DNA from: Oscillospiraceae bacterium
GTDB taxonomy: Bacteria; Bacillota; Clostridia; Oscillospirales; Oscillospiraceae
DNA length: 42,191 bases
Direction of reading: 5' to 3'
Assembly (NCBI GenBank): GCA_017537165.1
Contig: JAFYLI010000032.1
Coordinates: 1 to 42,191, forward strand
Each line of letters begins with the position of its first letter. Position 1 is the stretch's first letter. The position numbers were made by a program, and so were the translations under genes. Below, piece by piece: positions 1 through 41,875 of this stretch. The notes beneath the pieces were generated by a model. It worked only from the letters and a program-made list of their open reading frames with translations, had not been told where the DNA came from and made no database searches.

Positions 1-1086
1 ATTGCGCAGCTCGAAGCGGCGCTTATTGGGGCTCTTGGCATAGGCAGGAATACGGATAACCGCACTGCGGTTGGAAGTAGCGTAACCCACGGTCACAGGA
101 GCCTCAAAACCAGGCACCAGACGCTTGAAGGAGTTGGTGCTGGGGTTGGTGATGGCGCACAGGGAGGAGATGTGCTTCAGCAGACCGCCCATGAACCAGT
201 GAGCTTCCTTGCTCAGGTGAGAATAACCGTTATCATCGGAGAATACGGGCTCGCCGTTCTTCATAAGGAGCATGTGAACGTGCATACCGCTGCCTGCCTC
301 GCCGTAGATGGGCTTGGGCATGAAGGTTGCGGCCTTGCCGTACTTGAGAGCAGTGTTGTGGATGATATACTTGATCATCATGGTAGCGTCAGCCATCTTG
401 GACATCTCGCCCAGCTGAGGCTCGATCTCGAACTGGCCGGAAGCGGCAACCTCGGGATGATGATAGTTTATCTCGATGCCTGCATTGCCCATGTGCATGC
501 ACATTTCGCTTCTGCACTCGTAAGCAACGTCGAAGGGCTTGGCAACATGGTAAGCCTTCTGCTTGGGAACGATAACGCCCTGACCCTGGGTAGCGCTGTT
601 CCAGTAAGACTGCTGAGCGTCAACTCTTGCGCTGATGCTGTTGGGCTGAACTTCCCAACCTACCTGATCGAACAGATAGAACTCGAACTCGGGCAGGATA
701 TACATGGTATCAGCGATGTCGCAATCTCTCATGTACTGCTCTGCAGCGAGAACGATGTTGCGGGGATACTGAGCCAGAGGACGGTTTTCGGGGCTGTCGA
801 TGATCATTGCATTACCGGTCATGGACAGAGTGGGGATGGAGCAGAAGGGATCGATAACAGCGGTGTCGGGATCGGGAATGAAGACCATGTCGCTCTTCTC
901 TACAACAGCGTAGCCGTAGTTGGAGGCGTCAAAGCCGATACCGCTCTTCATGGTATCTTCGGAGAAGTTCTTTGCGGGAATGGTAACGTGGCGGTACTGA
1001 CCATTGATATCGACCATCTTGAAGTCGACCATTTCAATACCGTTTTCCTCAATAATCTTCAGAATATCCTGAACGCTTTTACTCAT
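1..1086 (-). CDS. glnA: Glutamine synthetase (type I), C-terminus cut by window edge
   Basis: ATP-dependent condensation of glutamate with ammonia to glutamine; cytoplasmic, dodecameric in the family. The frame stays open from the ATG at 1086 to the window edge (362 codons), so roughly 80 C-terminal residues are probably missing compared with the usual ~440. Visible motifs: PEFEFYLFD (about residues 129-137, metal-binding glutamates), YHHPEVAASGQ (about 207-217), the ATFMPKP signature (about 252-258) followed by GSGMHVHM, and NPSTNSFKRLVPG (about 314-326). The start is supported by an AGGGGTG ribosome site about 7 bases upstream. It is a single gene with its own putative promoter, pointing off the left edge. 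I cannot judge adenylylation because that region lies outside the window. Confidence 0.97.
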   Translation of the reverse strand, partial: MSKSVQDILKIIEENGIEMVDFKMVDINGQYRHVTIPAKNFSEDTMKSGIGFDASNYGYAVVEKSDMVFIPDPDTAVIDPFCSIPTLSMTGNAMIIDSPENRPLAQYPRNIVLAAEQYMRDCDIADTMYILPEFEFYLFDQVGWEVQPNSISARVDAQQSYWNSATQGQGVIVPKQKAYHVAKPFDVAYECRSEMCMHMGNAGIEINYHHPEVAASGQFEIEPQLGEMSKMADATMMIKYIIHNTALKYGKAATFMPKPIYGEAGSGMHVHMLLMKNGEPVFSDDNGYSHLSKEAHWFMGGLLKHISSLCAITNPSTNSFKRLVPGFEAPVTVGYATSNRSAVIRIPAYAKSPNKRRFELRN

Positions 1087-1122
1087 AATTTCACACCCCT
1101 GATGTGTTAAAAATTTGTTTTA

Positions 1123-1151
1123 ATGATATACTAACTTTTTCAAAATAACAA
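1123..1151 (-). promoter_or_regulatory. Putative sigma-A promoter of glnA
   Basis: On the minus strand TTGTTA (1146-1151) and TATCAT (1123-1128) are separated by exactly 17 bases, about 37 bases ahead of the glnA start. Both boxes match the consensus only moderately, so this is a candidate. Confidence 0.4.
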
Positions 1152-1196
1152 TACTGATGCGTTATTTTTTTGTATTTTTTTATTGTACAAAACAGC

Positions 1197-1247
1197 AAAA
1201 AAGCACGGAGCACCCGATACTGTACATCGGTCTGCTCCGTGCTTTTT
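1197..1247 (-). terminator. Rho-independent terminator after the URO-D-like gene
   Basis: A perfect stem (arms at 1197-1212 and 1233-1247) with a smaller nested hairpin in the loop (CCGAT/ATCGG) is followed on the minus strand by a T-rich run. It lies 25 bases past the stop of the URO-D-like gene and separates it from glnA. Confidence 0.85.
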
Positions 1248-1271
1248 ATAATTCACAGTTCAACTTGCCCG

Positions 1272-2252
1272 TTATTCGCCGAATTCGGCAGCGAAGCGAG
1301 CTATTTCGTCAGCAATAATGGGGTCGATATGACCGTTCAGGCTGCCGGGACCGCCTGCTGTGGGCGAGGGAATGAAATGACCGCCGGGAATATAGGTCGA
1401 GCATACGCGGCGAACTTCTGCGCGTACGGTTTCTTCGGTGGCATCGGGGAAATCCACCTTGGCTGCATCGATACCGCCCATCATTATCATATTACCCTTC
1501 AGGCGGGACTGGATATCAACGATATCGTTCTGAGGAAGAACGCCCTGCCAGATATCGATACCGATCTCTTCCATATCCTCAATAAGAGGCTCAAGGAAGC
1601 TGTCGGAATGATGCATGATGAGAACGCCCTGCTCGTGGAGGTATTCATAAAGACGCTTATAACCGGGCTTGAAAATTTCGCGCCAGGTATCGGGACTCAT
1701 GAACATGGATGTCTTTGCGCCCCAGTCGTCATGCTGGAACAGAACGTCGGGAGCAAGGTTCTCGCAGATCTGCTTATAGCATTCCATACGGTAATCCACG
1801 ATAAGGTCTACCATTTCTTTCATTATTTCAGGCTCTGCCACAAGGTTCATAAGGCAGTTTTCAAAGCCGGTGATATTACGCAGCAGCTCAAAATTGCCTA
1901 CGGGAACGAGCGTAAGGCTGAGCTTACCCTGAGCGCGTGCAGCAGCCTGCTGACCCTTGAAGGGTTCCCAATCAAACTGCATATTGGCAACGTCAGGCTT
2001 TTTGAGCACCTCTCTCCACTTTTCAACGTCGGGGCAGACCACGTACTCACCTTCTACGGGCATTACACCGGGCTGTCCCAAGGGCCAACTCATATGCACT
2101 CCCCATGCGTCCACAAGGGTCATACCGGGAGCCTGAGGCGACACGGCTATGGTAACGGGATTCATCATAAACTCAAATGGTTCCCAACCGTTTATAACGG
2201 ACACGGGCTTAGTACCATCAAGCATAGCAAGAAGTTTTTCTTTAGCTGTCAT
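1272..2252 (-). CDS. Uroporphyrinogen decarboxylase (URO-D) family protein, methyltransferase-like
   Basis: 326 residues from the ATG at 2252, chosen because AGAGGTG lies 6 bases upstream; an earlier in-frame GTG falls inside that ribosome site. The protein reads as a URO-D/corrinoid-methyltransferase TIM barrel, with conserved stretches such as LLRNITGFEN, LFQHDDWG, MMGGID and a C-terminal IPGGHFIPSPT. The segment aligning with the zinc-binding His-x-Cys of MtaA/MtbA-type methyltransferases reads MHHSDS (about 213-218), so the Cys ligand is absent. It is therefore more likely one of the broad clostridial URO-D-like proteins of unknown substrate than a haem-pathway HemE or a proven corrinoid methyltransferase. 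It sits 38 bases after a LysR gene on the same strand and is probably cotranscribed with it. No corrinoid protein is encoded nearby. Confidence 0.85.
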   Translation of the reverse strand: MTAKEKLLAMLDGTKPVSVINGWEPFEFMMNPVTIAVSPQAPGMTLVDAWGVHMSWPLGQPGVMPVEGEYVVCPDVEKWREVLKKPDVANMQFDWEPFKGQQAAARAQGKLSLTLVPVGNFELLRNITGFENCLMNLVAEPEIMKEMVDLIVDYRMECYKQICENLAPDVLFQHDDWGAKTSMFMSPDTWREIFKPGYKRLYEYLHEQGVLIMHHSDSFLEPLIEDMEEIGIDIWQGVLPQNDIVDIQSRLKGNMIMMGGIDAAKVDFPDATEETVRAEVRRVCSTYIPGGHFIPSPTAGGPGSLNGHIDPIIADEIARFAAEFGE

Positions 2253-2290
2253 TAATAACACCTCTTTCGTCTGTTTTCATATATTTACGC

Positions 2291-3184
2291 TTATTCTCCG
2301 TCCGTATCCGGATTATCTGAGAACAGCTTTATTAACTCGTCTGCAATGATATGGGTATTTGCATTTGATGTAACTGAGGGGTAAATAATATTGGTGGGAA
2401 ATGTATTGTTGAGCGGCAAATATTTGTACTCAGTATTGCTGACCACGTTGTCCCACTCAGTGAAAAACATAACACCCTTTCCGCAGGACATCTCAAACAG
2501 AGCGTTGGAATACTGGCCGCAGTTTCTCAGGTTTGCCGCAATACCGTATTCCATACAAATCTTTCTGATTGTCTGACCGAATTTCTTATCCAGGTCAACA
2601 TCATAGGTCAAGAAATCTACACCGTCTAAATCATAAATAGACTCTACATGTTCAAACCAAGCCTTTGCACAAAGCACTCCGCATCCGGTATCCGCAATAT
2701 GTTTCACTTCAAGGCCATACTGAACAGGCGGATAAAAATCATGGGTCATGATAATATCCAACTTACCCGACTGCAGACGCGATAGCAGTTCCGGCAGGCG
2801 AAAGCACTCTATATCCAGCTTCACCGCAGGATAGTACTCGTCGAAATACGCCTTTATCTTGCCGTAAAACTTATTGGGATTCCAGGTTTCGGGGCATCCG
2901 ATTTTCACGGAACCGAAAGGCTCTTCCAGATTGCTGTGGATATTAGCAAGCAGCTGCGTATATTCTTCACTGCTCTTTTTCAGGAAATCATAAAGTGCGC
3001 TGCCGGCCGGAGTAAGTCTCAAAGATCCCGATCTGCGCTCCAGCAGCACAAATCCCAGTTCTTCTTCCAGTTTTGATATACTTTTGCTTATAGCAGGCTG
3101 GGAAATGAACAGCGAGTTGGCTGCCTTTGCAAAGCTCTTCTCTTCTACAACAGTTATGAAGCAATTTATCTGTCCGTTTGTCAT
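2291..3184 (-). CDS. LysR-family transcriptional regulator
   Basis: 297 residues. The N-terminal winged helix-turn-helix (about residues 3-60) carries the classic SFAKAANSLFISQPAISKSI pattern. An effector-binding domain of the periplasmic-binding-protein fold follows (about 88-290, with VKIGCPETWNP at its start). The start is set by AAGGAG about 8 bases upstream. The gene precedes the URO-D-like gene by 38 bases on the same strand, so it probably controls that gene and itself. A perfect palindrome overlaps its predicted transcription start, which suggests autoregulation. The effector cannot be deduced from the sequence. Confidence 0.94.
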   Translation of the reverse strand: MTNGQINCFITVVEEKSFAKAANSLFISQPAISKSISKLEEELGFVLLERRSGSLRLTPAGSALYDFLKKSSEEYTQLLANIHSNLEEPFGSVKIGCPETWNPNKFYGKIKAYFDEYYPAVKLDIECFRLPELLSRLQSGKLDIIMTHDFYPPVQYGLEVKHIADTGCGVLCAKAWFEHVESIYDLDGVDFLTYDVDLDKKFGQTIRKICMEYGIAANLRNCGQYSNALFEMSCGKGVMFFTEWDNVVSNTEYKYLPLNNTFPTNIIYPSVTSNANTHIIADELIKLFSDNPDTDGE

Positions 3185-3211
3185 AGTTTTGTCTCCTTAC
3201 TTCGGAGGTAA

Positions 3212-3229
3212 TATAACTCATAAGTTATA
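3212..3229 (-). promoter_or_regulatory. Palindromic operator candidate for the LysR regulator
   Basis: TATAACT-CATA-AGTTATA is a perfect 7+7 inverted repeat just downstream of the -10 box, covering the predicted +1. LysR proteins usually bind T-N11-A dyads upstream of promoters and this sits further downstream, so autorepression is an inference. Confidence 0.4.
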
Positions 3230-3232
3230 AAT

Positions 3233-3261
3233 ACTTTAGCATATTCCGTGTAAATTTTCAA
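3233..3261 (-). promoter_or_regulatory. Promoter of the lysR/URO-D operon
   Basis: Minus strand: TTGAAA (3256-3261), 17-base spacer, TAAAGT (3233-3238), ending about 48 bases before the LysR start codon. Confidence 0.65.
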
Positions 3262-3442
3262 TAGTTCAGTTTAAGCTTCTCAGAATATTTTTTCATTCAC
3301 CCCGAGTTTTTTATTTTTGCTGCCAAACAAACATTTTTAGTTTTCTGCAAGTTTCTTTTACTATTGGCAAATCACTGCCCCCAGCGCCCTATTTCCAGCC
3401 CGAATTTCGTTGGTTTTTGCCAAAAATTAATTGGATTCTATC
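3262..3442. other. Intergenic stretch between divergent lysR and atp promoters
   Basis: With the flanking promoters and the atp leader this makes a 400-base gene-free region (3185-3584). This AT-rich core holds no credible ORF, no terminator and no strong inverted repeat that I can see. Confidence 0.5.
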
Positions 3443-3471
3443 TTGAAATATTTGTAATTAAATAGTATAAT
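3443..3471 (+). promoter_or_regulatory. Main promoter of the ATP synthase operon
   Basis: TTGAAA (3443-3448), 17-base spacer, perfect TATAAT (3466-3471). Transcription would start near 3478, leaving a leader of about 107 bases before atpZ. No other comparable promoter was seen inside the operon. Confidence 0.8.
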
Positions 3472-3584
3472 AGTGTTCCAACATAAATTGAGCATGTTCA
3501 GTTTTGCGTTTTTTTATAACATTTCACCAAAAAATGTCCTCGCTCCTTTGCGTTGCTGTTTTTTATGCCGAAACGGAGATAATT

Positions 3585-3842
3585 ATGAAAGATGTAAATC
3601 TTCTTATATGGCTGATGCAGTTGGGAATCTCTGTAGCAGTCCCGCTGGCAGGATTTATCCTCCTGTCGGTTTGGCTTCACAATGCCCGCGGTTGGGGTTC
3701 CTGGGTCGTCATCGTCGGCATCGTTCTCGGCATTTTATCTGCAGTCAGCGGGTTGCGCAGTTCTTTGGATTACCTCAGCAAGGCCTCAAAATCAAAGGAC
3801 GAAGATGAACAAAATGTTATATCTTTTAACGAACATGAATGA
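3585..3842 (+). CDS. atpZ: AtpZ/AtpI-like ATP synthase accessory membrane protein
   Basis: 85 residues from the ATG at 3585, chosen over an earlier in-frame ATG because GGAG lies about 6 bases upstream. Two hydrophobic helices (about residues 7-28 and 34-55) are joined by a short loop containing NARGWGSW, and a charged tail follows (KSKDEDEQ). This is the layout of the small AtpZ-type protein at the head of many clostridial atp operons, thought to help Mg2+ supply or c-ring assembly. First gene of the operon; the next gene starts 16 bases after its stop. The assignment rests on size, topology and position rather than a sharp motif. Confidence 0.75.
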   Translation: MKDVNLLIWLMQLGISVAVPLAGFILLSVWLHNARGWGSWVVIVGIVLGILSAVSGLRSSLDYLSKASKSKDEDEQNVISFNEHE

Positions 3843-3858
3843 TATCCGGAGGGAATAT

Positions 3859-4254
3859 ATGAACTCTCGTAAAATTGCCTTGCACGAAACAGGCATTATT
3901 GCCATAGGTGTGCTTATCGGGACAGCCATCCTTGTGGGCATATTCGCTTTGCTCGGCAAGTTCACACCCAGTGTTCTGCTGGGCGGCATAATAGGTGCCA
4001 TCCTCACAATCGCCAACTTTTTCGGCATGGCCGTAATCAGCACGCTTGCTGCCGACAGAGCCGAGCAGCAGGATACAGAGGGCGGAAAAAAACTTATAAA
4101 AAGCTCCTACCCCATTCGCATACTCGTTCTTGCCGCGCTACTTATCGTATTTGCCAAGAGTGGTTTCTGCAATGTTATCACCCTTGTTCTCCCCCTGGCA
4201 TTTGTAAGACCCACTATTACAATATCTGAATTTTTCAGAAAGAAAGGAGAATGA
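3859..4254 (+). CDS. atpI: ATP synthase subunit I
   Basis: 131 residues starting at MNSRKIALHETG, with a strong CCGGAGGG site 5 bases upstream. Four hydrophobic segments are visible: about residues 11-30, 35-58, 84-100 and 103-119. Between the second and third lies a charged loop (ADRAEQQDTEGGKKL). Size, topology and position directly before atpB fit the ATP synthase I family, which assists assembly of the c-ring in related systems. It ends 3 bases before the atpB start, so the two are probably translationally coupled. Confidence 0.82.
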   Translation: MNSRKIALHETGIIAIGVLIGTAILVGIFALLGKFTPSVLLGGIIGAILTIANFFGMAVISTLAADRAEQQDTEGGKKLIKSSYPIRILVLAALLIVFAKSGFCNVITLVLPLAFVRPTITISEFFRKKGE

Positions 4255-4257
4255 CCG

Positions 4258-5142
4258 ATGGAACTTGATATTACCGGCGCGTTTATATACTTTACCATCC
4301 CCGTCCTCGGTGGCATAAGGGTAACGCAGACCATGTTATCCACCCTCGTTGTTACTCTCATCATCTGCATTGCCTGCGTCATCTGCGGCAAAGATCTGAA
4401 AAAAAGACCCGGCGGACGTCAGGTCATGGTCGAAAAAGGCGTTATGATGCTGCGCAAAATGGTAACCGACACCATGGGCGAACACAATGCCCACTGGACA
4501 CCTTTTATCGGCACCATCTTCCTTTCCTCCATTCTCGGCACCTACATCGGACTGACCGGTTTTCTTCGCTCTACTACCGCAGATATCAGCTGCGTAATGG
4601 TGTGGGCAGTAATGGTTACTCTTATAATATGGTATAACAAAATCAAACATGAGGGTATTCTCGGTTGGCTCAAAGGATTCACCGAGCCCATAGTAGTAAT
4701 GACCCCCATGAATATCGTTTCCGAAATCGCCCAGCCCATTTCCATGGCATTCCGTCATTTCGGCAACGTAGCGGGCGGCGGTGTTATCACTACTCTTATA
4801 TACACCGCTCTTACCATCGCTTCCACCGCAGTTATCAACCTTATCGCGGCCAGCGGCTGGGTCATTGCTGCCGTACTGCTTGCCGTAGGTGTTGTCCTTA
4901 TAGTCCTTTGGAAGAAGAGCGGAAAGAAAGTCGCTCTGGTTTTCGGTATCATTTCTGCTGTTCTCGGCCTCTTTGGCCTTCTCGAGGCAATCGGCATTCT
5001 GGCAGGAGTTCCCATTCTTACCTACGGTCTCCCCGCAGTTCTTTCCTGCTACTTCGACCTCTTCTCCGGTTTTGTTCAGGCATATGTATTCTGCCTGCTT
5101 ACCATGGTTTATATTTCCGGCGCTCTTCCTGAGCCCCAGTAA
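4258..5142 (+). CDS. atpB: F0F1 ATP synthase subunit a
   Basis: Membrane stator subunit forming the ion half-channels against the c-ring. 294 residues, with the essential helix-5 arginine at Arg166 in PISMAFRHFGNV and the terminal FSGFVQAYVFCLLTMVYIS helix. The protein is longer than the usual 220-250 residues. The extra length lies between the Arg-bearing helix and the last helix, where two additional hydrophobic stretches (about 198-219 and 225-247) surround a WKKSGKK turn. It starts 3 bases after atpI; a 70-base gap with an AGGAGG site then leads to atpE. The insertion may be lineage-specific. Confidence 0.95.
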   Translation: MELDITGAFIYFTIPVLGGIRVTQTMLSTLVVTLIICIACVICGKDLKKRPGGRQVMVEKGVMMLRKMVTDTMGEHNAHWTPFIGTIFLSSILGTYIGLTGFLRSTTADISCVMVWAVMVTLIIWYNKIKHEGILGWLKGFTEPIVVMTPMNIVSEIAQPISMAFRHFGNVAGGGVITTLIYTALTIASTAVINLIAASGWVIAAVLLAVGVVLIVLWKKSGKKVALVFGIISAVLGLFGLLEAIGILAGVPILTYGLPAVLSCYFDLFSGFVQAYVFCLLTMVYISGALPEPQ

Positions 5143-5212
5143 TCCCGGCATTCAATAAAGTTATCCATTTTAAAACACCAATATATAATAATTTTTTAGG
5201 AGGATATTAATT

Positions 5213-5458
5213 ATGGATTTGGCATCTGCAATCGCAATCGCCGGTAAGGCTATCGGCGCAGGTCTTTGCATGGGTATCGGCGCTATCGGCCCCGGTATCG
5301 GTGAAGGTAACGCCGTTGCTCACGCTCTTGATGGCATGGCTCGTCAGCCTGAGTCTACCAGCACTCTCCGTTCCACTATGATCATGGGCTGCGCTATCGC
5401 CGAGACCACCGGTATTTACTCTCTCATTATCGCGCTGCTTATTATGTTCCTTCTGTAA
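5213..5458 (+). CDS. atpE: F0F1 ATP synthase subunit c, two-carboxylate Na+-type signature
   Basis: 81-residue hairpin of two helices forming the rotor ring, with the polar loop ARQPE (43-47). Helix 1 ends GPGIGEG, placing Glu31 where the Na+ ring of Ilyobacter has its Gln. Helix 2 has IAETTGIYS, with Glu64, Thr65, Thr66 and Tyr69 at the Na+-coordinating positions. This matches the two-carboxylate sodium motif described for Fusobacterium nucleatum, so sodium coupling is a reasonable inference, though not proven by sequence. The start is fixed by AGGAGG about 9 bases upstream. Codon use is strongly biased, as expected for the most abundant subunit. Confidence 0.97.
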   Translation: MDLASAIAIAGKAIGAGLCMGIGAIGPGIGEGNAVAHALDGMARQPESTSTLRSTMIMGCAIAETTGIYSLIIALLIMFLL

Positions 5459-5493
5459 GAACCTTCAATACTATTTGAAAGGAGTCTGCAAAA

Positions 5494-6000
5494 GTGGCAC
5501 AATTTGAGGCATTTATTGGCGTAAACCTTTGGACTGCCCTGTTCACTCTGCTCAATACTCTCACAATCTTTTTCGTTGCAAGAAAATTTCTGTTCCGTCC
5601 CGTTATGAAGATCATAGAAGATCGCCAGAAGGAAATTGACGGAATGTATTCCGCTGCCGACACCGCAAAGGTTGAGGCCGATGCCATGCGCAGCGAATAT
5701 CAGCAGAAGCTCAACGAAGCTCACGCTACTTCCGACCGCATCGTGAAGGAAGCAGTTGTCCGCGGCCAAAACCGTGAAGAGGAAATAATCCGCCAGGCTC
5801 ATCAGGAAGCCGACGCTATTATGACCAAGGCTGCCGCAGATATTGAGTTGGAGCGCAAAAAAGCAATCAACGACGCCAAGAATGAAATTTCCGGCATAGC
5901 TATCGCGATCGCCGGTAAGGTCGTAGGCCGCGAGCTGAACGAAAACGATCAGGCCGCTTTGATCGACCACTTTATCAACGAATTGGGTGAAGAAGCATGA
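5494..6000 (+). CDS. atpF: F0F1 ATP synthase subunit b
   Basis: 168 residues starting with GTG; AAAGGAG lies 9 bases upstream and no in-frame ATG gives a full N-terminus. One membrane helix (about residues 8-30, NLWTALFTLLNTLTIFFVA) is followed by a long charged amphipathic helix, the peripheral stalk. The C-terminus matches the delta-binding end (GKVVGRELNENDQAALIDHFI). Only one b gene is present, so it presumably works as a homodimer. Its TGA overlaps the atpH ATG (ATGA). Confidence 0.95.
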   Translation: MAQFEAFIGVNLWTALFTLLNTLTIFFVARKFLFRPVMKIIEDRQKEIDGMYSAADTAKVEADAMRSEYQQKLNEAHATSDRIVKEAVVRGQNREEEIIRQAHQEADAIMTKAAADIELERKKAINDAKNEISGIAIAIAGKVVGRELNENDQAALIDHFINELGEEA

Positions 6001-6536
6001 GCCAGATAGGAAGTGTTTATGCTCAGGCACTCTATTCGCTGGCAGAAGAGGAATCTCTTGCAAAGACTATCCTCGATGAGCTTATGACTCTCGACGGCAT
6101 AATATCCGCCGAGGGAGATTTTCTGCGTCTGCTGTCTGCCTCTACCCTTTCCAAGGACGAGCGCTGCGGCATCGTGGACGAGATTTTCCGGGACAAGGTG
6201 CATCCCTATGTCCTCAACTTTATGAAGATCCTCACCGAAAAGGGATATATGCGCTATTTCAGCGACTGCTGCAAGGCTTATCGCAAGCAGTACAACAAGG
6301 ATAACGGTATCCTTGCCGTTACCGCCGTTACTGCCGCTCCCCTTTCCGAGGATCAGACCGAAAAGCTGACCGAAAAGCTCACCAAGATTACCGGCAAGAC
6401 CATCGAGCTGGAAAACAAGATAGATCCCTCCTGCATCGGCGGCATACGCCTTGACTACGACGGCAAGCGCACGGATGACACGGTAATTCACCGTCTTGAC
6501 ACCCTGCGCAACATACTCAACAATACCGTACTATGA
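5997..6536 (+). CDS. atpH: F0F1 ATP synthase subunit delta
   Basis: 179 residues, the usual size for OSCP/delta. The N-terminal helical domain begins IGSVYAQALYSLAEEE, and the C-terminal region has the family pattern IDPSCIGGIRLDYDGKRTD (about 140-160). Delta links subunit b to the alpha N-termini. Translation is coupled to atpF through the 4-base ATGA overlap. Confidence 0.94.
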   Translation: MSQIGSVYAQALYSLAEEESLAKTILDELMTLDGIISAEGDFLRLLSASTLSKDERCGIVDEIFRDKVHPYVLNFMKILTEKGYMRYFSDCCKAYRKQYNKDNGILAVTAVTAAPLSEDQTEKLTEKLTKITGKTIELENKIDPSCIGGIRLDYDGKRTDDTVIHRLDTLRNILNNTVL

Positions 6537-6560
6537 TTCGCGGTAGAAAGCAGGTACAGT

Positions 6561-8075
6561 ATGGAATTAAGACCCGAAGAAATAACTAAAGTAATACGCA
6601 GCAAAATAAAAAACTATGAAGCAAAGCTGGAGCAGAGCGAAACCGGCGTTGTCATCCTCGTAGGTGACGGTATCGCCCGCGTTTCCGGCCTTGAAAAGTG
6701 TATGGCAGGCGAGCTTATCGAAATGCCCAACGGTTCCTACGGTATGGCTCAGAATCTCGAAGAGGACACCGTTTCCGTTGTTATCCTCGGTACCGATAAC
6801 GGCATCAAGGAAGGCGACACCGTAAAGCGTACGGGCAAGGTCGTTTCCGTTCCCGTTGGCTCCGCTCTTATAGGCCGCGTTGTTGACGCGCTCGGCGAGC
6901 CCATTGACGGCAAGGGCCCCATTGAGGCAGAAACCTACCGTCCTATCGAAATGCCCGCTCCCGGTGTTATCGAAAGAAAGCACGTAAGCCGTCCCATGCA
7001 GACCGGTATCAAGGCTATCGACTCCATGATACCTATCGGTCGCGGCCAGCGTGAGCTTATCATCGGCGACCGCCAGACCGGCAAAACCACTATCGCTACC
7101 GACACCATCCTCAACCAGAAGGGTAAGGATGTTATCTGCATTTACGTTGCAATCGGCCAGAAGCGTTCCACCGTTGCTCAGCTCGTTGAGAACCTTACCG
7201 TAAACGGCGCCATGGATTACACCATCGTTGTTTCCGCAACCGCATCCGAACTGGCTCCCATGCAGTACATCGCACCCTATGCCGGCTGCTCCATGGGCGA
7301 GCACTTCATGCATCAGGGCAAGGACGTCCTCATTATCTATGACGATCTTTCCAAGCATGCAGTTGCTTACCGCGCAATTTCTCTGCTTATCCGCCGTCCC
7401 CCCGGACGTGAGGCATACCCCGGCGACGTTTTCTACCTCCACTCCAGACTGCTTGAGCGTGCAGCTCAGCTTTCCGATGCTCTCGGCGGCGGCAGCCTTA
7501 CCGCTCTGCCCATTATCGAAACTCAGGCAGGCGACGTTTCCGCATACATCCCCACCAACGTAATTTCCATCACTGACGGCCAGATATTCCTTGAAACCGA
7601 GCTGTTCAACGCAGGCGTTATGCCCGCTGTTAACCCCGGCATCTCCGTATCCCGAGTCGGCGGTGACGCCCAGATAAAGGCTATGAAAAAGGTTTCCGGC
7701 AGCCTCAAGCTCCTCTACTCTCAGTATCGCGAGCTGCAGAGTTTTGCCCAGTTCGGTTCCGATTTGGATCAGGACACCAAGGAACGTCTTAATCAGGGTG
7801 AACGCATCGTTGGCGTACTGAAGCAGAAGAACAACTCCCCCGTTGAGGTTGCTCATCAGGTATGTATCATCTACGCCGTTACCAACGGTTTCCTTACCGA
7901 TATTGATGTAGCCGACATCCCTGAGTTCGAGACTCGTCTGCAGGAGCACATGGATCTGCGCTACCCCAATGTTCTTGAAGCTATCCGTACCAGCGGCAAG
8001 CTTGAACCCGAGACCGAAGAAACCCTCAAGGCCGCAATCGACGAGCTGGTATCGGATTTCGCATCTGAAAACTAA
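6561..8075 (+). CDS. atpA: F0F1 ATP synthase subunit alpha
   Basis: 504 residues, full length. Non-catalytic nucleotide-binding subunit of the F1 head: DGIARVSGL in the N-terminal barrel, Walker A GDRQTGKT (about 169-176), Walker B-type [11 protein letters not shown], and the family signature [14 protein letters not shown] with the conserved Ser-Arg. The 24-base gap after atpH holds the ribosome site GAAAGCAGG. Nothing is missing compared with functional homologues. Confidence 0.98.
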
Positions 8076-32585: not shown

Positions 32586-32954
32586 TTACTCAGCAACGAT
32601 CTCAGCGTCAACTGCATTCTTCTTAACGGACTCAATGCCGTTTACGCAGCTGGCCTCTGCCGTATAGCCCTCGGAGGTAGCGATGACCTGGCCGTTGGTA
32701 GCCTTCAGGCGGAAACGATACTCGCCTGCCTTGTCAACATACATCTCAAACTTGGGATGCTTCTGAACTGCATAACCCTCCTGGGTCTGATTCTCAACAG
32801 CAGCGATAGGAGCATTCTTCTGAACGCTGGCGATACCGTTGCGGCAGGCAGCCTCGGTGGTATAAACTTCGGAAGTAGCGATAACCTGGCCGTTGGTGGC
32901 CTTCAGATCAAACTTAATGCCGGTGTTAACCTTGCGAATAACAAACTTACCCAT
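32586..32954 (-). CDS. Two-repeat DUF1508 (YegP-like) protein
   Basis: 122 residues with two DUF1508 repeats: repeat 1 about residues 3-48 (FDLKATNGQVIATSEVYT) and repeat 2 about 68-114 (FRLKATNGQVIATSEGYT), each ending in NGI-x-SVxKNA. This matches the YegP family, small proteins of unknown role that pair as a swapped beta dimer. The two repeats share the identical block LKATNGQVIATSE. AGGAGGA lies about 8 bases before the ATG. Confidence 0.93.
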   Translation of the reverse strand: MGKFVIRKVNTGIKFDLKATNGQVIATSEVYTTEAACRNGIASVQKNAPIAAVENQTQEGYAVQKHPKFEMYVDKAGEYRFRLKATNGQVIATSEGYTAEASCVNGIESVKKNAVDAEIVAE

Positions 32955-33071: not shown

Positions 33072-33100
33072 TTGACAAAGTCGGTCTATAATCATAGACT
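33072..33100 (+). promoter_or_regulatory. Promoter of the BlaI/M56 operon
   Basis: Perfect TTGACA (33072-33077), 17-base spacer, TAGACT (33095-33100). A proximal TATAAT-like sequence inside the spacer is too close to the -35 box to be used with it. Confidence 0.65.
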
Positions 33101-33126
33101 ATATTCAAGGTCGATAGATATAGACC
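33083..33126 (+). promoter_or_regulatory. Twin inverted-repeat operators for the BlaI-like repressor
   Basis: Two copies of GGTCTAT-N4-ATAGACC. Site 1 (33083-33100) spans spacer and -10 box with one mismatch in the last base; site 2 (33109-33126) lies just past the predicted start, also with one mismatch. Their centres are 26 bases apart. The layout is that of BlaI/MecI autorepression. Confidence 0.75.
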
Positions 33127-33146: not shown

Positions 33147-33509
33147 ATGGAAATGCTTAAACTTTGTGAAAGCGATCACCGCTTTATGACAGTTATATGG
33201 GACAATGAGCCCCTTTCTTCGGGCGAACTGGTAAACATCTGTGCCCGCGAACTTGGCTGGAAGAAGTCCACCACTTACACCGTTCTTAAAAAGCTATGCG
33301 AAAAAGGCTTCACCAAGAACGAAGACACTGTAGTCACAACCCTCATCCCCCGCAGCGAAGTGCAGGCTTACGAAAGCGAACGTTTTATAGAGCGCAGCTT
33401 CGGAGGTTCCCTGCCCGGTTTCCTCACCGCTTTTCTGGGCGGCAAGACAATTTCCGCAAAGGAGGCCGCCGAACTCAAGCGGCTGATCGACGAACACAAG
33501 GAGGATTAA
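33147..33509 (+). CDS. BlaI/MecI-family transcriptional repressor
   Basis: 120 residues from the ATG at 33147 (TAAGGAGG upstream; a longer reading would start inside the promoter). Winged helix-turn-helix: DHRFMTVIWDNEPLSSGELV, then KKSTTYTVLKKLCEKGF (recognition helix, about 41-57). The C-terminal dimerisation part contains SFGGSLPGFLTAFLGGKTIS (about 80-99). In known systems the membrane M56 protease triggers cleavage of this repressor. The partner starts 2 bases after its stop. No beta-lactamase or PBP gene is adjacent. Confidence 0.94.
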   Translation: MEMLKLCESDHRFMTVIWDNEPLSSGELVNICARELGWKKSTTYTVLKKLCEKGFTKNEDTVVTTLIPRSEVQAYESERFIERSFGGSLPGFLTAFLGGKTISAKEAAELKRLIDEHKED

Positions 33510-33511
33510 TT

Positions 33512-36500
33512 ATGGAATCCGTATTTTCCTTGATTCTTGATATGAGCCTTACCGCCTCTTTCGTTATCTTCGCGATACTGCTCATACGTCAGCTTTTGAA
33601 AAAAGCACCCAAGAAATACTCTTACGCGCTTTGGCTTGTGGCTGCATTCCGCCTTATCTGCCCCGTGAGCATAGAATCTGCATTCAGCATATTCAATCTC
33701 AAATTCGGCAAAAGCGGAGCATCGCTCACTGATGTTCCCACCTACCTGCCTCCCACTAATATCGCTCCCGCGCAGCCCGCACCCAGCATTGCGCCATCCG
33801 GCTCTGCTGCTATCGTGCTTCCCAATGGCGCCACAAATATCGGCACGGCGCAGACCGTTCCCATAGTTCCTACGGAACCTGCAGCATCGGTAAACATGAT
33901 GGGTGTACTGGCAATTATATGGTGCCTCGGCATTGCCGCGCTGCTTATCTACAGCATATATACATATATAAAGCTGAAGCGCCGGCTTTCCACTGCCGTA
34001 CTTCTGCAGGATAACATACGGCAGGCAAGCGGCATCCGCTCCCCTTTCATTCTTGGCTTTATCCGCCCGCAGATATACGTTCCTTACCATCTCAGTGATG
34101 GTGAAATGGACTATGTACTGGCTCACGAACGTTTCCACCTTAAGCGCCGCGACCACATAATTAAACCTCTCGCTTTTCTTATCCTCGTTCTCCACTGGTT
34201 CAATCCCCTTGTATGGCTGGCTTTTTATCTGATGGTCAGGGATATGGAAATGAGCTGCGACGAAAAAGTTCTCTCCCGCGACGAAAGCATCCGCAAGGAT
34301 TACAGCAGTACGCTCCTTTCCTTCGCTGCAGGCCGCTCCTTCCCCGCCCCCAGTCCTCTTTCTTTTGGTGAGGGCAGCGTGAAGAGCCGCATCAAGAACA
34401 TTCTCAACTGGAAAAAGCCCGCGCTGTGGCTGACAGTTGCCGCCATCGTAATATGCGCGGCAGTTATAGCCGTATGCGGCACCAATGCCAGAATCAGCTT
34501 GCCCGCCGACAAAATAAGCGAAGTCTCCGCAAACGGTGAAACAATTCCCTCCGAAGCCGCCGAAGATCTGATAGATCTCATAAACAGCCACAGCAAAACC
34601 GCTTATCACAAGGCTCCCGCAGAAGTTGGCAATGCAGACAGCCGCGTCGCCATAACCTTCGAGGATGGCAGCAGCTATTATCTCCACCACTGGTATTGCA
34701 GCGGCTTCTCATTCAATCCCGCCCACTTCGGCGAGGACGATTACTACACCATCCTCAGCCGCCTTGACGAAAATGGCAACCCCGTAAAAAGTTGGAAGAT
34801 GGAATACAGCTTCGACAAAGTATTCCTCGATTGGCTTGAAAAGTATTCCGCAAACAATCTCCATCCCTTCGGCAGCGAGTTCACCCTTTCCGAGGCCATA
34901 TTCACAAGGGACAACGGCGCAAAGCTCTCCTTTGAAACAGCCGAAGGCATTCTACTCGACAGCAGCAGAACTCTCTACGCAGGCAGCGAGCCTCTCGGCA
35001 GCTTTGAGCAGATAACGCTGTCTGGAAGCAACTGGGATAACTATCTAACCGGTGCAAGAGGCACATGGCTGACATACAGTGCCAAAGAACTGCGCCGCCA
35101 TAATTCCCGCGCATGGCGCATAGTAAACAGCGACCGTTATTACTATCTGCTTCTGCAGGATGACGGCACGCTGTACCTTGCAGGCGGCTACTACGATGCC
35201 GAGGGCGAATATGATTCCGAATCCGATGACTCCAACATTTTCTGCATCTATGAGCTTGCGGGCGAAGGCAGCGCTATTCGCTGGCAGTATGTCCAATACG
35301 AGCAGCCTGACTACTTCCCTCTTGATTTCGATTTTGAGTACAGCAGCATTCGCTTCGTGGCAACCGAGGGTTCTATCCGCGCCATTGACGCAGCAGGCTA
35401 CCCGCTGCAGGGCGTGGATGTCGAGGTTTCTGCTCAGTGCAGCGAAATCGGCTGGGTACATCCCATTGATGCCAATATGAGTGCTTCCCTCAGGCAGGAG
35501 GGCAACAGAGAAAAGATCGCGCCCTTTGCAGAGGTATTCTTCACTGCCACCCTCTCCGACGGCGAAACTCTCAGCGGCACGCTTATCATCTCCCGCCCCG
35601 ACAAACGCGACCGCTATCTTTATGAAATAACCCTCGATTCCGACACTTTGGGCATAAAGCGCGCTCCCAAGGGCGGCGCAGTAATCTATGTTACCACCGA
35701 AAGCGTCACCGCTCCCGCCGCAGATATTTATGCCCCCATCTCCTGCCTTTACATGGCTCCCCACAGTTCCTATTACCCTTGGGGCGGCGACAGTGGCTGC
35801 CGATACATCATTGACAGCGACAGCATCATCGTGGAACGAATGGATGGCAGCAGCAGCGAAGTTATCTTTTTTGACAGTTGGAATTACAGCGTACTCGAAC
35901 CTTATTCCGAAGAATGGACATCTATGTTCGTTGTAAATGCCCCCACCTTTGAAAACATCAAAAAGCCTCTTTATCTGCATATCTCCAATGAATTTTTCCT
36001 CCTCAACCTTGACGGTCAGCTTTGCATCGGCGAAGTTCATGACGGTCTCGTGTGGGATATCTACGCCATCGTACCCGAGGCTCAGCTTGGCATCGCCGTA
36101 TGGGAATACAGACCCGAACTCAGTTCCCGTTCCCCCTGGTTCGAGTTTGAGTTCGATATGGAGTATGAAAGTCTGCAGATAAGCAGTTCCCGCGGCGATC
36201 TCTTCTCCGACGGCAGCAGATATGCCGACACTCAGTTGGGTCTGCCCTACGGAAGTACGGTACGTTGGTCACCCTCCGCACAATATGACCGACATTCCGG
36301 TACACAGCTGCTGTTTACTGTCAACTTCGTTGATGGCAGCATGATGCAGGGCACGATTTACATTAGCTCTGAGAACAACCTCTACACCGCAGTTCTGCGC
36401 GCCGACGGCCTGCATCTCTCCAATGATGAAGATTACGGACACGCCGTCATACGGCTTACAGACTCGTCTGCCGTTATCGGCGGCACAGACCACGCATCCC

Positions 36501-38494
36501 TCGTTGCCAACAAGCTGAGCGAAACCATCAATATGGGCGGTTCCTACTATCTCACCCCCCATATCGCAGACCACGGCAAGCAGGATACCCTGCTGATAGA
36601 CCGCAGAAGCGATATATCCGGCTTTATCCGCAACTGCCGTCTTACTCCCATCGAAGCGCCCTTCACCGAGCCCAGTGATTATTGGATAGAAATCAGCGGC
36701 ATTATATCCGACACCAAAATCACCGTATGGCATGGCACCCGGGACACTCTACAGCTTACCTCAACAGAAGGCACACAGTATTACCGCGTGGACAGCAGTG
36801 ATCTTGCCGCCGAACTAATGGAGTTTTACTTCAACAACGCCCCCTATGTGCCCGAATTCACCACCGACCTCAACGAGTTGCTGAACAAATGGCAGGCAGA
36901 AGGAGTGGCAGAGCTGAGTTCTGAAAAACTTCTGCTGTTGAACCGGAACTTCGTTGCCACAATAACAGGCGAGGGCAATCCTCTCAGTAATTTCTTCACA
37001 TGTTACTACGCTCGCACCGAAGAACTCAACCTTGCTGCATTCCTGCAATATAACTTCGTTTCGAGCGCAGCATATACCGAAGAGGATTTCTACGCGCTGA
37101 AGCAACAGTATCCCAACCACGGACAACTTGACGGTTCGGACACCTATGAGGATGCGGTAAAATTCCGCAATCCCATCCATAAGTTCCCGCGCGAAAAGGT
37201 AGACGAACAGCTTATGCGCTATATGGGTATTACCACCGCGGATATTACCGCCGAAATAGATTTGGAAAACTCCGGCTTGGTTTATCTCGCCGAAGCCGAC
37301 GCTTATTTCAACTTCACCAGTGACATGGGTGCCGGCATCTTCCGTGCCGACTCCGGCAAAATCGTGGGTGATACCGTATATCTCCGCAGCGGCTTTGCTA
37401 CCCTTACCCTACGAAAAAACGGAGATACATGGCTCATTTATTCCCACACCTATGACACAGAGTCCGCCACCAGAGCGTATATTTCAAACGGCATTCTTGA
37501 AATATTCGACGTGGACGGGCAGATGGATATCACCGAATATTCAGACAACGGAGCCAAGGGTGCAGTGCTCACCATCACCGACCGAGAAACTGCCGAGCGC
37601 TACAGCCGAATGCTGCAATCCTGTATATTTACCAAGGTAGACGCTCCCGCTGAACCCATAGATGTTCCCCGGCTTGAGTTCACCCCCACTCAGCCCACCA
37701 ACCGCCTTATCATTTGGGACAGTGAAACTCCCCTGCTGCGTTACAGTCCCCGAGGGCGGCATGAGTATTACACCTTCACCTCGGACGTTTGGGACAACCT
37801 CTACGATGAGCTTTACAAGAGCTTCGACGGCAGGCTGCAGCAGATGTACCTTGAGGAAAACAGCACATACACCACCGACCTCAACGATCTTCTAAACAAA
37901 TGGCAGGCGGAAGGCGTTACTACTCTCAGTCAGGAGCAGTGTACACAGCTGAGCAAAAACTTTATCCCCACAAGCTGGAACAAAAACGGCCCCGGCATAG
38001 CCTCCGTCAATCCCCTCAGCGGTTTCTTCTCCTATTATTACGAGCGCCCCGAGGACATTGACCTTAAAGAGTTTCTAAGATACAACTTCGACCTCGACAT
38101 AGGTTTCACCGAAGATGATTTCAACTTGCTTAGGCAGTACAAGGTGCAGATAGCCGATTTGTCTGCCGATGAGACCTATGAGGACGCAGTAAGAATGCAG
38201 ACTCCCATCCACAAATATCCCCGCAAAAAGGTTGATGCTCTGCTGACAAAGTACGCAGGCATCACCACCGCCGATCTAAGCAGTGAGCCGAACATGGTAT
38301 ATCTTGACGAATTCAATTCCTATTACAACTTCACCAGTGACTACGGCCCGATTCCATTCAATTGCTACGCAGGCAAAATAGACGGCGATATGGTATATTT
38401 GAGCGATGGCAGCGCAACGCTAACTCTCCGTAAGAACGTCGATGAATGGCTGATTTATTCTCATATTTTCTACGGTTCCGTTGAGTTGCACTGA
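33512..38494 (+). CDS. Giant M56 (BlaR1-like) membrane metallopeptidase with repeat-containing C-terminal region
   Basis: 1660 residues; BlaR1-like proteins are usually 300-700. AAGGAGG lies upstream of the ATG. N-terminal M56 unit: helices at about 5-25 and 33-50, a Pro-rich loop, a helix at about 129-152, and the zinc motif HERFH (His205, Glu206, His209) followed by LHWFNPLVW and DMEMSCDEKVL. A fourth membrane helix (about 305-325) leads into about 1330 presumably extracellular residues. These contain two repeat families: R1 about 604-729 and 877-989 (Phe-Asp-x-Glu-Tyr start), and R2 about 1117-1310 and 1454-1655 (start TTDLN-x-LLNKWQAEGV, end ATLTLRKN...WLIYSH). No penicillin-binding domain is visible. 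It probably senses an external signal and cleaves the adjacent BlaI-like repressor. Confidence 0.88.
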   Translation: MESVFSLILDMSLTASFVIFAILLIRQLLKKAPKKYSYALWLVAAFRLICPVSIESAFSIFNLKFGKSGASLTDVPTYLPPTNIAPAQPAPSIAPSGSAAIVLPNGATNIGTAQTVPIVPTEPAASVNMMGVLAIIWCLGIAALLIYSIYTYIKLKRRLSTAVLLQDNIRQASGIRSPFILGFIRPQIYVPYHLSDGEMDYVLAHERFHLKRRDHIIKPLAFLILVLHWFNPLVWLAFYLMVRDMEMSCDEKVLSRDESIRKDYSSTLLSFAAGRSFPAPSPLSFGEGSVKSRIKNILNWKKPALWLTVAAIVICAAVIAVCGTNARISLPADKISEVSANGETIPSEAAEDLIDLINSHSKTAYHKAPAEVGNADSRVAITFEDGSSYYLHHWYCSGFSFNPAHFGEDDYYTILSRLDENGNPVKSWKMEYSFDKVFLDWLEKYSANNLHPFGSEFTLSEAIFTRDNGAKLSFETAEGILLDSSRTLYAGSEPLGSFEQITLSGSNWDNYLTGARGTWLTYSAKELRRHNSRAWRIVNSDRYYYLLLQDDGTLYLAGGYYDAEGEYDSESDDSNIFCIYELAGEGSAIRWQYVQYEQPDYFPLDFDFEYSSIRFVATEGSIRAIDAAGYPLQGVDVEVSAQCSEIGWVHPIDANMSASLRQEGNREKIAPFAEVFFTATLSDGETLSGTLIISRPDKRDRYLYEITLDSDTLGIKRAPKGGAVIYVTTESVTAPAADIYAPISCLYMAPHSSYYPWGGDSGCRYIIDSDSIIVERMDGSSSEVIFFDSWNYSVLEPYSEEWTSMFVVNAPTFENIKKPLYLHISNEFFLLNLDGQLCIGEVHDGLVWDIYAIVPEAQLGIAVWEYRPELSSRSPWFEFEFDMEYESLQISSSRGDLFSDGSRYADTQLGLPYGSTVRWSPSAQYDRHSGTQLLFTVNFVDGSMMQGTIYISSENNLYTAVLRADGLHLSNDEDYGHAVIRLTDSSAVIGGTDHASLVANKLSETINMGGSYYLTPHIADHGKQDTLLIDRRSDISGFIRNCRLTPIEAPFTEPSDYWIEISGIISDTKITVWHGTRDTLQLTSTEGTQYYRVDSSDLAAELMEFYFNNAPYVPEFTTDLNELLNKWQAEGVAELSSEKLLLLNRNFVATITGEGNPLSNFFTCYYARTEELNLAAFLQYNFVSSAAYTEEDFYALKQQYPNHGQLDGSDTYEDAVKFRNPIHKFPREKVDEQLMRYMGITTADITAEIDLENSGLVYLAEADAYFNFTSDMGAGIFRADSGKIVGDTVYLRSGFATLTLRKNGDTWLIYSHTYDTESATRAYISNGILEIFDVDGQMDITEYSDNGAKGAVLTITDRETAERYSRMLQSCIFTKVDAPAEPIDVPRLEFTPTQPTNRLIIWDSETPLLRYSPRGRHEYYTFTSDVWDNLYDELYKSFDGRLQQMYLEENSTYTTDLNDLLNKWQAEGVTTLSQEQCTQLSKNFIPTSWNKNGPGIASVNPLSGFFSYYYERPEDIDLKEFLRYNFDLDIGFTEDDFNLLRQYKVQIADLSADETYEDAVRMQTPIHKYPRKKVDALLTKYAGITTADLSSEPNMVYLDEFNSYYNFTSDYGPIPFNCYAGKIDGDMVYLSDGSATLTLRKNVDEWLIYSHIFYGSVELH

Positions 38495-38511
38495 ACAACC
38501 CATACCTTCAC

Positions 38512-38540
38512 AATGCGGCAGGTCATCCTGCCGCATTTGT
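38512..38540 (+). terminator. Hairpin after the M56 gene, likely terminator
   Basis: AATGCGGCAGG and its perfect complement around TCAT, 18 bases after the stop. The T-run is short (TTTGTG), so termination may be partial. Confidence 0.6.
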
Positions 38541-38568
38541 GCGTTTACGGCAGGGTGCAATTTCAAAC

Positions 38569-38781
38569 GGAACGGTCAAGACCGTTCCCTACGAACATCG
38601 AATAACTTCCGCTCAACCATGTAGGGAATGAGCCTGCCCATTCCGCCATTAACGGCAATGCCGTTAATACTGTAGGGCGCGTTGCCCTCAACGCGCCGAG
38701 GACGCAGAGTGCAGTAACGAACCATGCACCGCAGTAAAAAAATATGTCATTGCGAAGAGCGTCGAGGGCGACGCTCCCTAC
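38569..38781. repeat. Array of five short hairpin modules (GTAGGG/CCCTAC-framed)
   Basis: Five successive inverted repeats fill this intergenic stretch: 38569-38588 (GGAACGGTC/GACCGTTCC), 38625-38644 (GGAATGAGC/GCCCATTCC, one mismatch), 38648-38668 (ATTAACGGCA/TGCCGTTAAT), 38676-38697 (GGCGCGTTG/CAACGCGCC) and 38757-38776 (GAGCGTCG/CGACGCTC). Several are bordered by GTAGGG or CCCTAC. No plausible coding frame exists. They resemble dispersed hairpin repeats seen in Oscillospirales intergenic DNA. Confidence 0.7.
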
Positions 38782-41431: not shown

Positions 41432-41875
41432 TTATTCTTCTGCTATTGCAGTGTAGTATCTGAATTTCACATCTTCGTTTTCGTCGAAGTTGCCTCTCAT
41501 GATACTGTCAAGAATGTCATGCAGAAGGTCTTTGTCTATGTGACCCGCAGCCACATGATAGCTGATATTTTCAGTTTCTCTAAAGAACGTCTGCGCAACA
41601 GCCAAGTATCCGTTAATCAGTAGGAACTGTACCGACAAGGTGATCGCCAAACGTTTATTGCCATCCTCAAAACTGTGGAATTTGCAAACGCAAAAGAACA
41701 GGTGCGTCAGCTTGTCCACAAATGTAGGATAATAATCATCATTCTGTATGTGGGTTAAAACACTTTCGATTTTTCCAAAGTCGAGTATGCCTTCTGCTCC
41801 GCCGCCGCTGTGCTTAATTGTCAGCAAATGGATATCTTTGGCCTTCTCGGCGTCAATGTAATGGAACTTTGCCAT
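41432..41875 (-). CDS. doc: Doc-type (death-on-curing, Fic fold) toxin-like protein
   Basis: 147 residues. The Fic/Doc motif HSFEDGNKRLA (His67 to Ala77) is intact, with catalytic His67 and the Doc-type GNKR ending. The flanking helices match the family (TFVDKLTHLFFCVCKF before, LSVQFLLINGY after). Doc phosphorylates elongation factor Tu; canonical Fic proteins AMPylate, and the Gly-Asn here leaves both possible. AAGGAGCG lies upstream. The start is 1 base from the stop of the preceding gene, indicating translational coupling as in toxin-antitoxin or toxin-partner pairs. Confidence 0.88.
   Translation of the reverse strand: MAKFHYIDAEKAKDIHLLTIKHSGGGAEGILDFGKIESVLTHIQNDDYYPTFVDKLTHLFFCVCKFHSFEDGNKRLAITLSVQFLLINGYLAVAQTFFRETENISYHVAAGHIDKDLLHDILDSIMRGNFDENEDVKFRYYTAIAEE

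Follow-up and report, generated by a model that had tools for sequence, protein, structure and literature searches.

The giant receptor described here, from a gut Oscillospiraceae bacterium, is predicted from its sequence to carry, in place of the penicillin-binding part of BlaR1, a long series of outward-facing domains, most of them duplicated. It belongs to a widespread but little-described set of BlaI-M56 receptors that differ in their ectodomains, and within this set it is an extreme example and not a one-off because replaced sensor parts are common in its relatives. The parts recovered fit a BlaI-coupled M56 receptor with an exchanged ectodomain, and the protein probably works as a self-regulated, one-protease receptor for an envelope or extracellular ligand that is not a beta-lactam.

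The receptor gene occupies positions 33512–38494 on the forward strand of contig JAFYLI010000032.1, the whole stretch of DNA analysed (42,191 nucleotides, hereafter the window). ORF analysis gave a frame that starts with ATG, is stop-free throughout and encodes 1660 amino acids; the ORF was called mechanically from 33296, and the ATG at 33512 is preceded by a ribosome-binding-like AGGAGG. Directly upstream and translationally adjacent, with two bases between its stop codon and that ATG, lies a BlaI/MecI-type repressor gene (33147–33509, forward strand, 120 amino acids) containing the winged-helix Penicillinase_R domain of the BlaI family (E 4.7e-19). Such a repressor adjoining the M56 gene is what is expected of a BlaR1/MecR1 beta-lactam receptor, and the initial annotation had read this adjacency correctly, together with the absence of a nearby beta-lactamase: a scan of flanking ORFs in the window recognised neither a beta-lactamase nor a PBP. 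On the other side of the repressor a divergent gene (32586–32954, reverse strand) encodes a two-copy DUF1508 protein, which is kept in the contig of the ortholog (L003, see below) and is apparently a mere neighbour.

The N-terminal part is a standard M56 unit, as had been proposed (residues 8–297; 33533–34402, forward strand). It scores 185 bits against PF05569, for which the cut-off is 31 (E 1.8e-54), and it matches the BlaR1 structure 8exs; indeed, the sequence matches of the receptor in the PDB are BlaR1 structures only. The zinc residues are complete, with H205 and H209 in the HExxH motif HERFH (residues 205–209; 34124–34138, forward strand) and E246 and D250 in the ExxxD motif EMSCD (residues 246–250; 34247–34261, forward strand). 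The spacing of 41 residues between both motifs is that of BlaR1, where the zinc residues are H201 and E242 (PMC9834060), and it was found in all 126 surveyed relatives that have HExxH. With the NCBIfam model blaR1_generic the receptor reached 94.9 bits, below the cut-off of 400. Hydropathy peaks appear at residues 7–25, 42–60, 129–147 and 304–322, plus one within the protease unit, and the peak at 304–322 (34421–34477, forward strand) would correspond to TM4, with the chain beyond it predicted to lie outside. The tail is therefore placed outside the cytoplasm by homology with the topology of BlaR1, a prediction that the lipoprotein relatives of the tail modules support (see below). The M56 gluzincin with HExxH and ExxxD, the BlaI partner and, as predicted, the arrangement of transmembrane segments with a C-terminal part following TM4 are common to the giant receptor and BlaR1/MecR1 of S. 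aureus (8exs, 8exp; PMC9834060), although the former is more than twice as long in total and has, instead of the class-D-like penicillin-binding sensor, five module types in nine copies.

These nine domains make up the roughly 1335 residues after TM4 (326–1660), in which no Pfam or NCBIfam family was matched; homologs of the modules likewise fall into no family of either collection. Self-comparison and profiles gave the order N1-(M-A)2-(X-B)2, which follows from the duplication of B, A, X and M-A each. All on the forward strand, the chain begins with N1 (residues 326–450; 34487–34861), which bears the motif YxSGFSFxPxHxGEDDY and has 12 homologs in M56 proteins, followed by M1 (450–605; 34859–35326, profile comparison), A1 (604–735; 35321–35716, self-comparison, profile and model), M2 (736–870; 35717–36121, homologs and profile) and A2 (866–990; 36107–36481, homologs, profile and model), both A domains being Ig-like in the models. 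It continues with X1 (997–1116; 36500–36859, self-comparison and fold match), B1 (1117–1316; 36860–37459, self-comparison and alignment), X2 (1320–1453; 37469–37870, self-comparison) and B2 (1454–1660; 37871–38491, self-comparison and alignment).

The strongest repeat is that of B1 with B2 (1117–1310 and 1454–1655; phmmer E about 1e-60). A1 and A2 (about 578–733 and 849–988) match at E 3.5e-4, and X1 and X2 (997–1116 and 1320–1453) more weakly than B1 and B2; neither the A nor the X score was reached in any of 500 shuffles. Duplication of the M-A unit is seen in the comparison of profile with profile (E 2.7e-11), and M1-A1 is detected at E 4e-8 by a profile built from M2-A2 homologs together with the receptor's own M2-A2. 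M1 and M2 compared alone as single sequences gave no significant match, and no relatedness between N1 and X was detected. Two repeat families, each present twice, had been proposed before; these are real and correspond to A and B, but the list was incomplete, X and M being duplicated as well. A Pfam beta-trefoil match in the receptor at 0.13 was discarded as chance, as was the likeness of calmodulins in the PDB to the profile of module B (E 0.003–0.03), which was put down to an LTEEE-type helix, because the acidic loop residues are unconserved in the B alignment. Residues 326–1660 gave no Pfam match to a transpeptidase (penicillin-binding) domain and contain no KTG/KSG box, which agrees at the level of sequence with the earlier statement that a recognisable penicillin-binding domain is absent; the PF00905 matches of this genome sit on other contigs.

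The AlphaFold models of the tail are well formed, with pLDDT 83.6 for residues 326–997 and 83.5 for residues 990–1320, and Foldseek searches with both returned no match at E below 0.001. When the models were compared with known structures by VIA-align, A1 and A2 gave best Z values of 5.1–6.8 over 80–101 residues with Ig-like domains, without a Pfam Ig match, and X1 gave Z 8.2 (rmsd 3.4, 114 of 122 residues) with the C. perfringens lipoprotein 4r7r, without a sequence match; all these Z values fall in the range possible for a merely common arrangement. No convincing fold match was found for N1, M or B, and no catalytic feature was seen in the tail models. A penicillin-binding fold did not appear among the VIA-align matches listed, which by itself proves nothing.

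The upstream region suggests how the operon would be controlled. A putative promoter, TTGACA-N17-TAGACT (33072–33100, forward strand), was read from the sequence and is kept in L003; it overlaps a predicted BlaI operator, the perfect inverted repeat GTCTAT-N4-ATAGAC (33084–33099, forward strand), and a second predicted operator with one mismatch, GTCGATAGATATAGAC, follows at 33110–33125 on the same strand and is also kept in L003. An inverted-repeat operator in the own promoter is the other characteristic looked for in the BlaI family. The twin operators lie between the conserved TTGACA and blaI and are preserved in L003 while the neighbouring bases drift. The GTCTAT-N4-ATAGAC element was present upstream of 33 of 100 BlaI-M56 operons, compared to 0.65 in shuffles, with a spacer that is nearly always of four bases. 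Its half-sites are those of the C. thermocellum BlaI_0696 motif obtained by DAP-seq and EMSA, which has a spacer of five, and not the four counted here (PMC8457756). The systems of BlaI_0696 and BlaI_1845 are also clostridial BlaI-BlaR1 operons with twin GTCTAT inverted-repeat operators and a small autoregulated regulon, although BlaI_0696 also acts on genes beyond the operon that encodes it (PMC8457756), whereas no such target was found here among the matches listed; the passages on these systems do not go into the ectodomains of their BlaR1 proteins. No second operator pair appeared among the matches listed for this genome (about 96% complete) or for that of the ortholog. Single sites, allowing at most two mismatches, were fewer than in the reversed-pattern control and are not taken as a wider regulon. 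Since paired operators were seen only at its own promoter among the matches listed, the visible regulon is the operon itself, to which weaker sites, sites beyond those matches and the 4% of the genome that is missing may add.

It is evident from the relatives that a non-penicillin ectodomain is ordinary. BlaI adjoins the M56 gene in 104 of 115 M56 loci, and none of 99 close-relative ectodomains, a sample picked by similarity to the giant receptor, matched the transpeptidase model; DUF4825 occurs in 17 of them, and M23, MreC, PASTA, SH3_3, GW, LRR, FG-GAP and Big_14 in one or two each. As this sample was chosen by similarity, 30 relatives were searched directly, and there PF00905 overlapped none of the 40 M56 genes over the cut-off. 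The proposal of a new class made in the initial annotation thus has to be abandoned, the non-PBP ectodomain being the rule here and BlaI its usual companion. Domain databases already list M56 architectures with non-penicillin ectodomains, and we found no paper on such receptors in the open-access literature, outside which many journals lie. Large size is not unique either: M56 frames of 1000–1900 residues recur in relatives, and 11 of 102 complete proteins exceed 1000 residues, the giant receptor and its ortholog being the longest of these. The plan of an M56 unit with a variable ectodomain is common to the giant receptor and the M56 proteins carrying DUF4825, M23, MreC, PASTA, LRR, FG-GAP or Big_14, although the N1-(M-A)2-(X-B)2 series was not seen in the latter; apart from the giant receptor, that series was seen in the ortholog L003 and in no other. 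This genome carries a further BlaI-M56 pair (L002, G000:C15:16487-17401) with a different ectodomain that ends in Big_14 (Ig-like), which is the expected picture if specificity resides in the ectodomain.

Cell-wall-linked domains (M23 peptidase, PASTA, SH3_3, GW, MreC) in the ectodomains of some relatives would also agree with a receptor that still serves the beta-lactam response, responding not to the drug but to its effects, either wall damage or peptidoglycan fragments, or to a penicillin-binding protein that acts as its partner. BlaI, the operator and the protease are those of beta-lactam systems, and induction in B. licheniformis is reportedly triggered by a peptidoglycan fragment (PMC3305447). 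However, the scanned flanking ORFs hold no recognised beta-lactamase or PBP, nor was the operator pair found elsewhere in the genome among the matches listed, and we consider this explanation rather unlikely.

Each of the tail modules is found again in other M56 proteins. About a dozen of them have N1, M is widespread, including Papillibacter and Paenibacillus, A occurs together with M, B stands directly behind M56 in L114, L115, L116 and L118, and X occurs in the M56 protein L151. By genomes, B was present in 34 of 300 from the family, 21 of 394 from the order and 11 of 391 from the class. The modules are not confined to receptors: B appears in at least 10 loci as M56-free proteins with lipoprotein-type signal peptides (lipobox), among them L117, L119, L120, L121 (two copies), L122, L125, L126 and L127, and M-A in one case (L138) as a lipobox-bearing stand-alone protein. 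Stand-alone secreted versions of the repeats, anticipated as support for a sensor role, do therefore exist as lipoproteins; nevertheless, no M56 or BlaI gene was found within the 1–1.5 kb flanks of the B or M-A lipoproteins, so these modules may serve a role other than sensing. L121 (1252–3021) is a stand-alone lipoprotein whose two B domains follow each other in tandem, which shows that duplication of B is not restricted to M56 proteins. The L134 protein (1486–2904, reverse strand) has M1-M2-A2 and starts at what would be the final transmembrane helix of an M56 unit; its flank showed no M56, and it is perhaps a split or frameshifted receptor.

Lipoproteins with the same modules and no M56 are also what would be expected if the ectodomain served chiefly for adhesion or envelope binding (or as an effector), with M56 as a regulated anchor and sensing secondary. 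With its tandem Ig-like and other modules the ectodomain resembles surface proteins, the weak fold matches include pilus adhesin domains, and the receptor operon is the sole operator target detectable among the matches listed. Yet the catalytic residues, BlaI and the operators are conserved, and the repeated joining of tail modules to M56 units favours a signalling link, which makes a mainly structural role unlikely in our estimation.

For the BlaI-coupled receptor that we favour, BlaI dimers on the twin operators over the promoter would keep the operon repressed, while the M56 protein would sit in the membrane with its zinc protease toward the cytoplasm and its 1335-residue ectodomain, made of N1 and the duplicated M, A (Ig-like), X and B modules, outside. 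A non-beta-lactam extracellular or cell-envelope ligand, or envelope strain, would move the ectodomain and so activate the protease allosterically, and the activated protease would cleave BlaI and so lift repression from the operon and from other targets, if there are any. What is proposed here on orientation, on allosteric activation and on how BlaI is cleaved is carried over from BlaR1 (PMC9834060), and we infer from the architecture that the ectodomain is what senses the ligand. This ligand is likely to be other than a beta-lactam and is probably an envelope or extracellular molecule; the cell-wall domains of sister receptors hint at this, without showing it. The M. tuberculosis BlaR1 homologue also combines an M56 protease and BlaI without a penicillin sensor, although it is described without an equivalent sensor domain where the giant receptor has a very large unrelated one (PMC9834060). 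A further-reaching scheme, in which the M56-BlaI pairs of Clostridia form a combinatorial family with swappable, internally duplicating ectodomains common to surface lipoproteins, and the operon is a closed loop whose induced product is the giant receptor itself, with an ectodomain that is effector as well as sensor, seems to us quite improbable.

BlaR1 is known as a beta-lactam receptor, but that ligand rests on the penicillin-binding domain, which none of the 40 M56 genes examined in relatives has. Should these pairs sense other envelope signals, the automatic annotation "BlaR1 beta-lactam sensor" would mislead resistome surveys, and gut Clostridia would possess a one-protease signalling system that has hardly been studied. 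The common operator and the occurrence of the modules as lipoproteins make searches for ligand and regulon practical.

The ortholog L003 comes from the Oscillospiraceae MAG RGIG6375 (sheep rectum) and consists of BlaI and a 1917-residue receptor (906–6659); a contig with its content appears also as G249:C168. Its receptor has the identical domain order followed by one more X, the third, and by a last domain of another kind, which indicates gain or loss of modules among species within a single genus. Identity per domain is 53–79%, and the dN/dS ratio comes to 0.13 in the M56 part and to about 0.23 in the tail, with dS near saturation and B2 left out, for which there is no estimate. The receptor gene is intact and under purifying selection. 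A long frame in a metagenome assembly could raise the suspicion of a chimera or a decaying gene, as could the greater divergence of B2 from the ortholog (53%), but the ortholog in a second MAG keeps the order, dN/dS is low wherever estimable and internal stops are absent. The artefact joining separate genes that was contemplated at the outset is ruled out by this shared order, and chimerism or decay in general is extremely improbable.

B2 (37871–38491) has 53% identity to its counterpart in L003 (5340–5894), compared to 58–79% for the other tail domains, falling to 0.29 near residues 1521–1560, and its divergence possibly reflects module replacement by recombination between repeats. Beyond the receptor, repeat-like elements occupy the intergenic stretch 3' of the gene (38510–38780), and a Fic/DOC domain match (E 3e-9) lies in a short ORF at 41432–41875 on the reverse strand.
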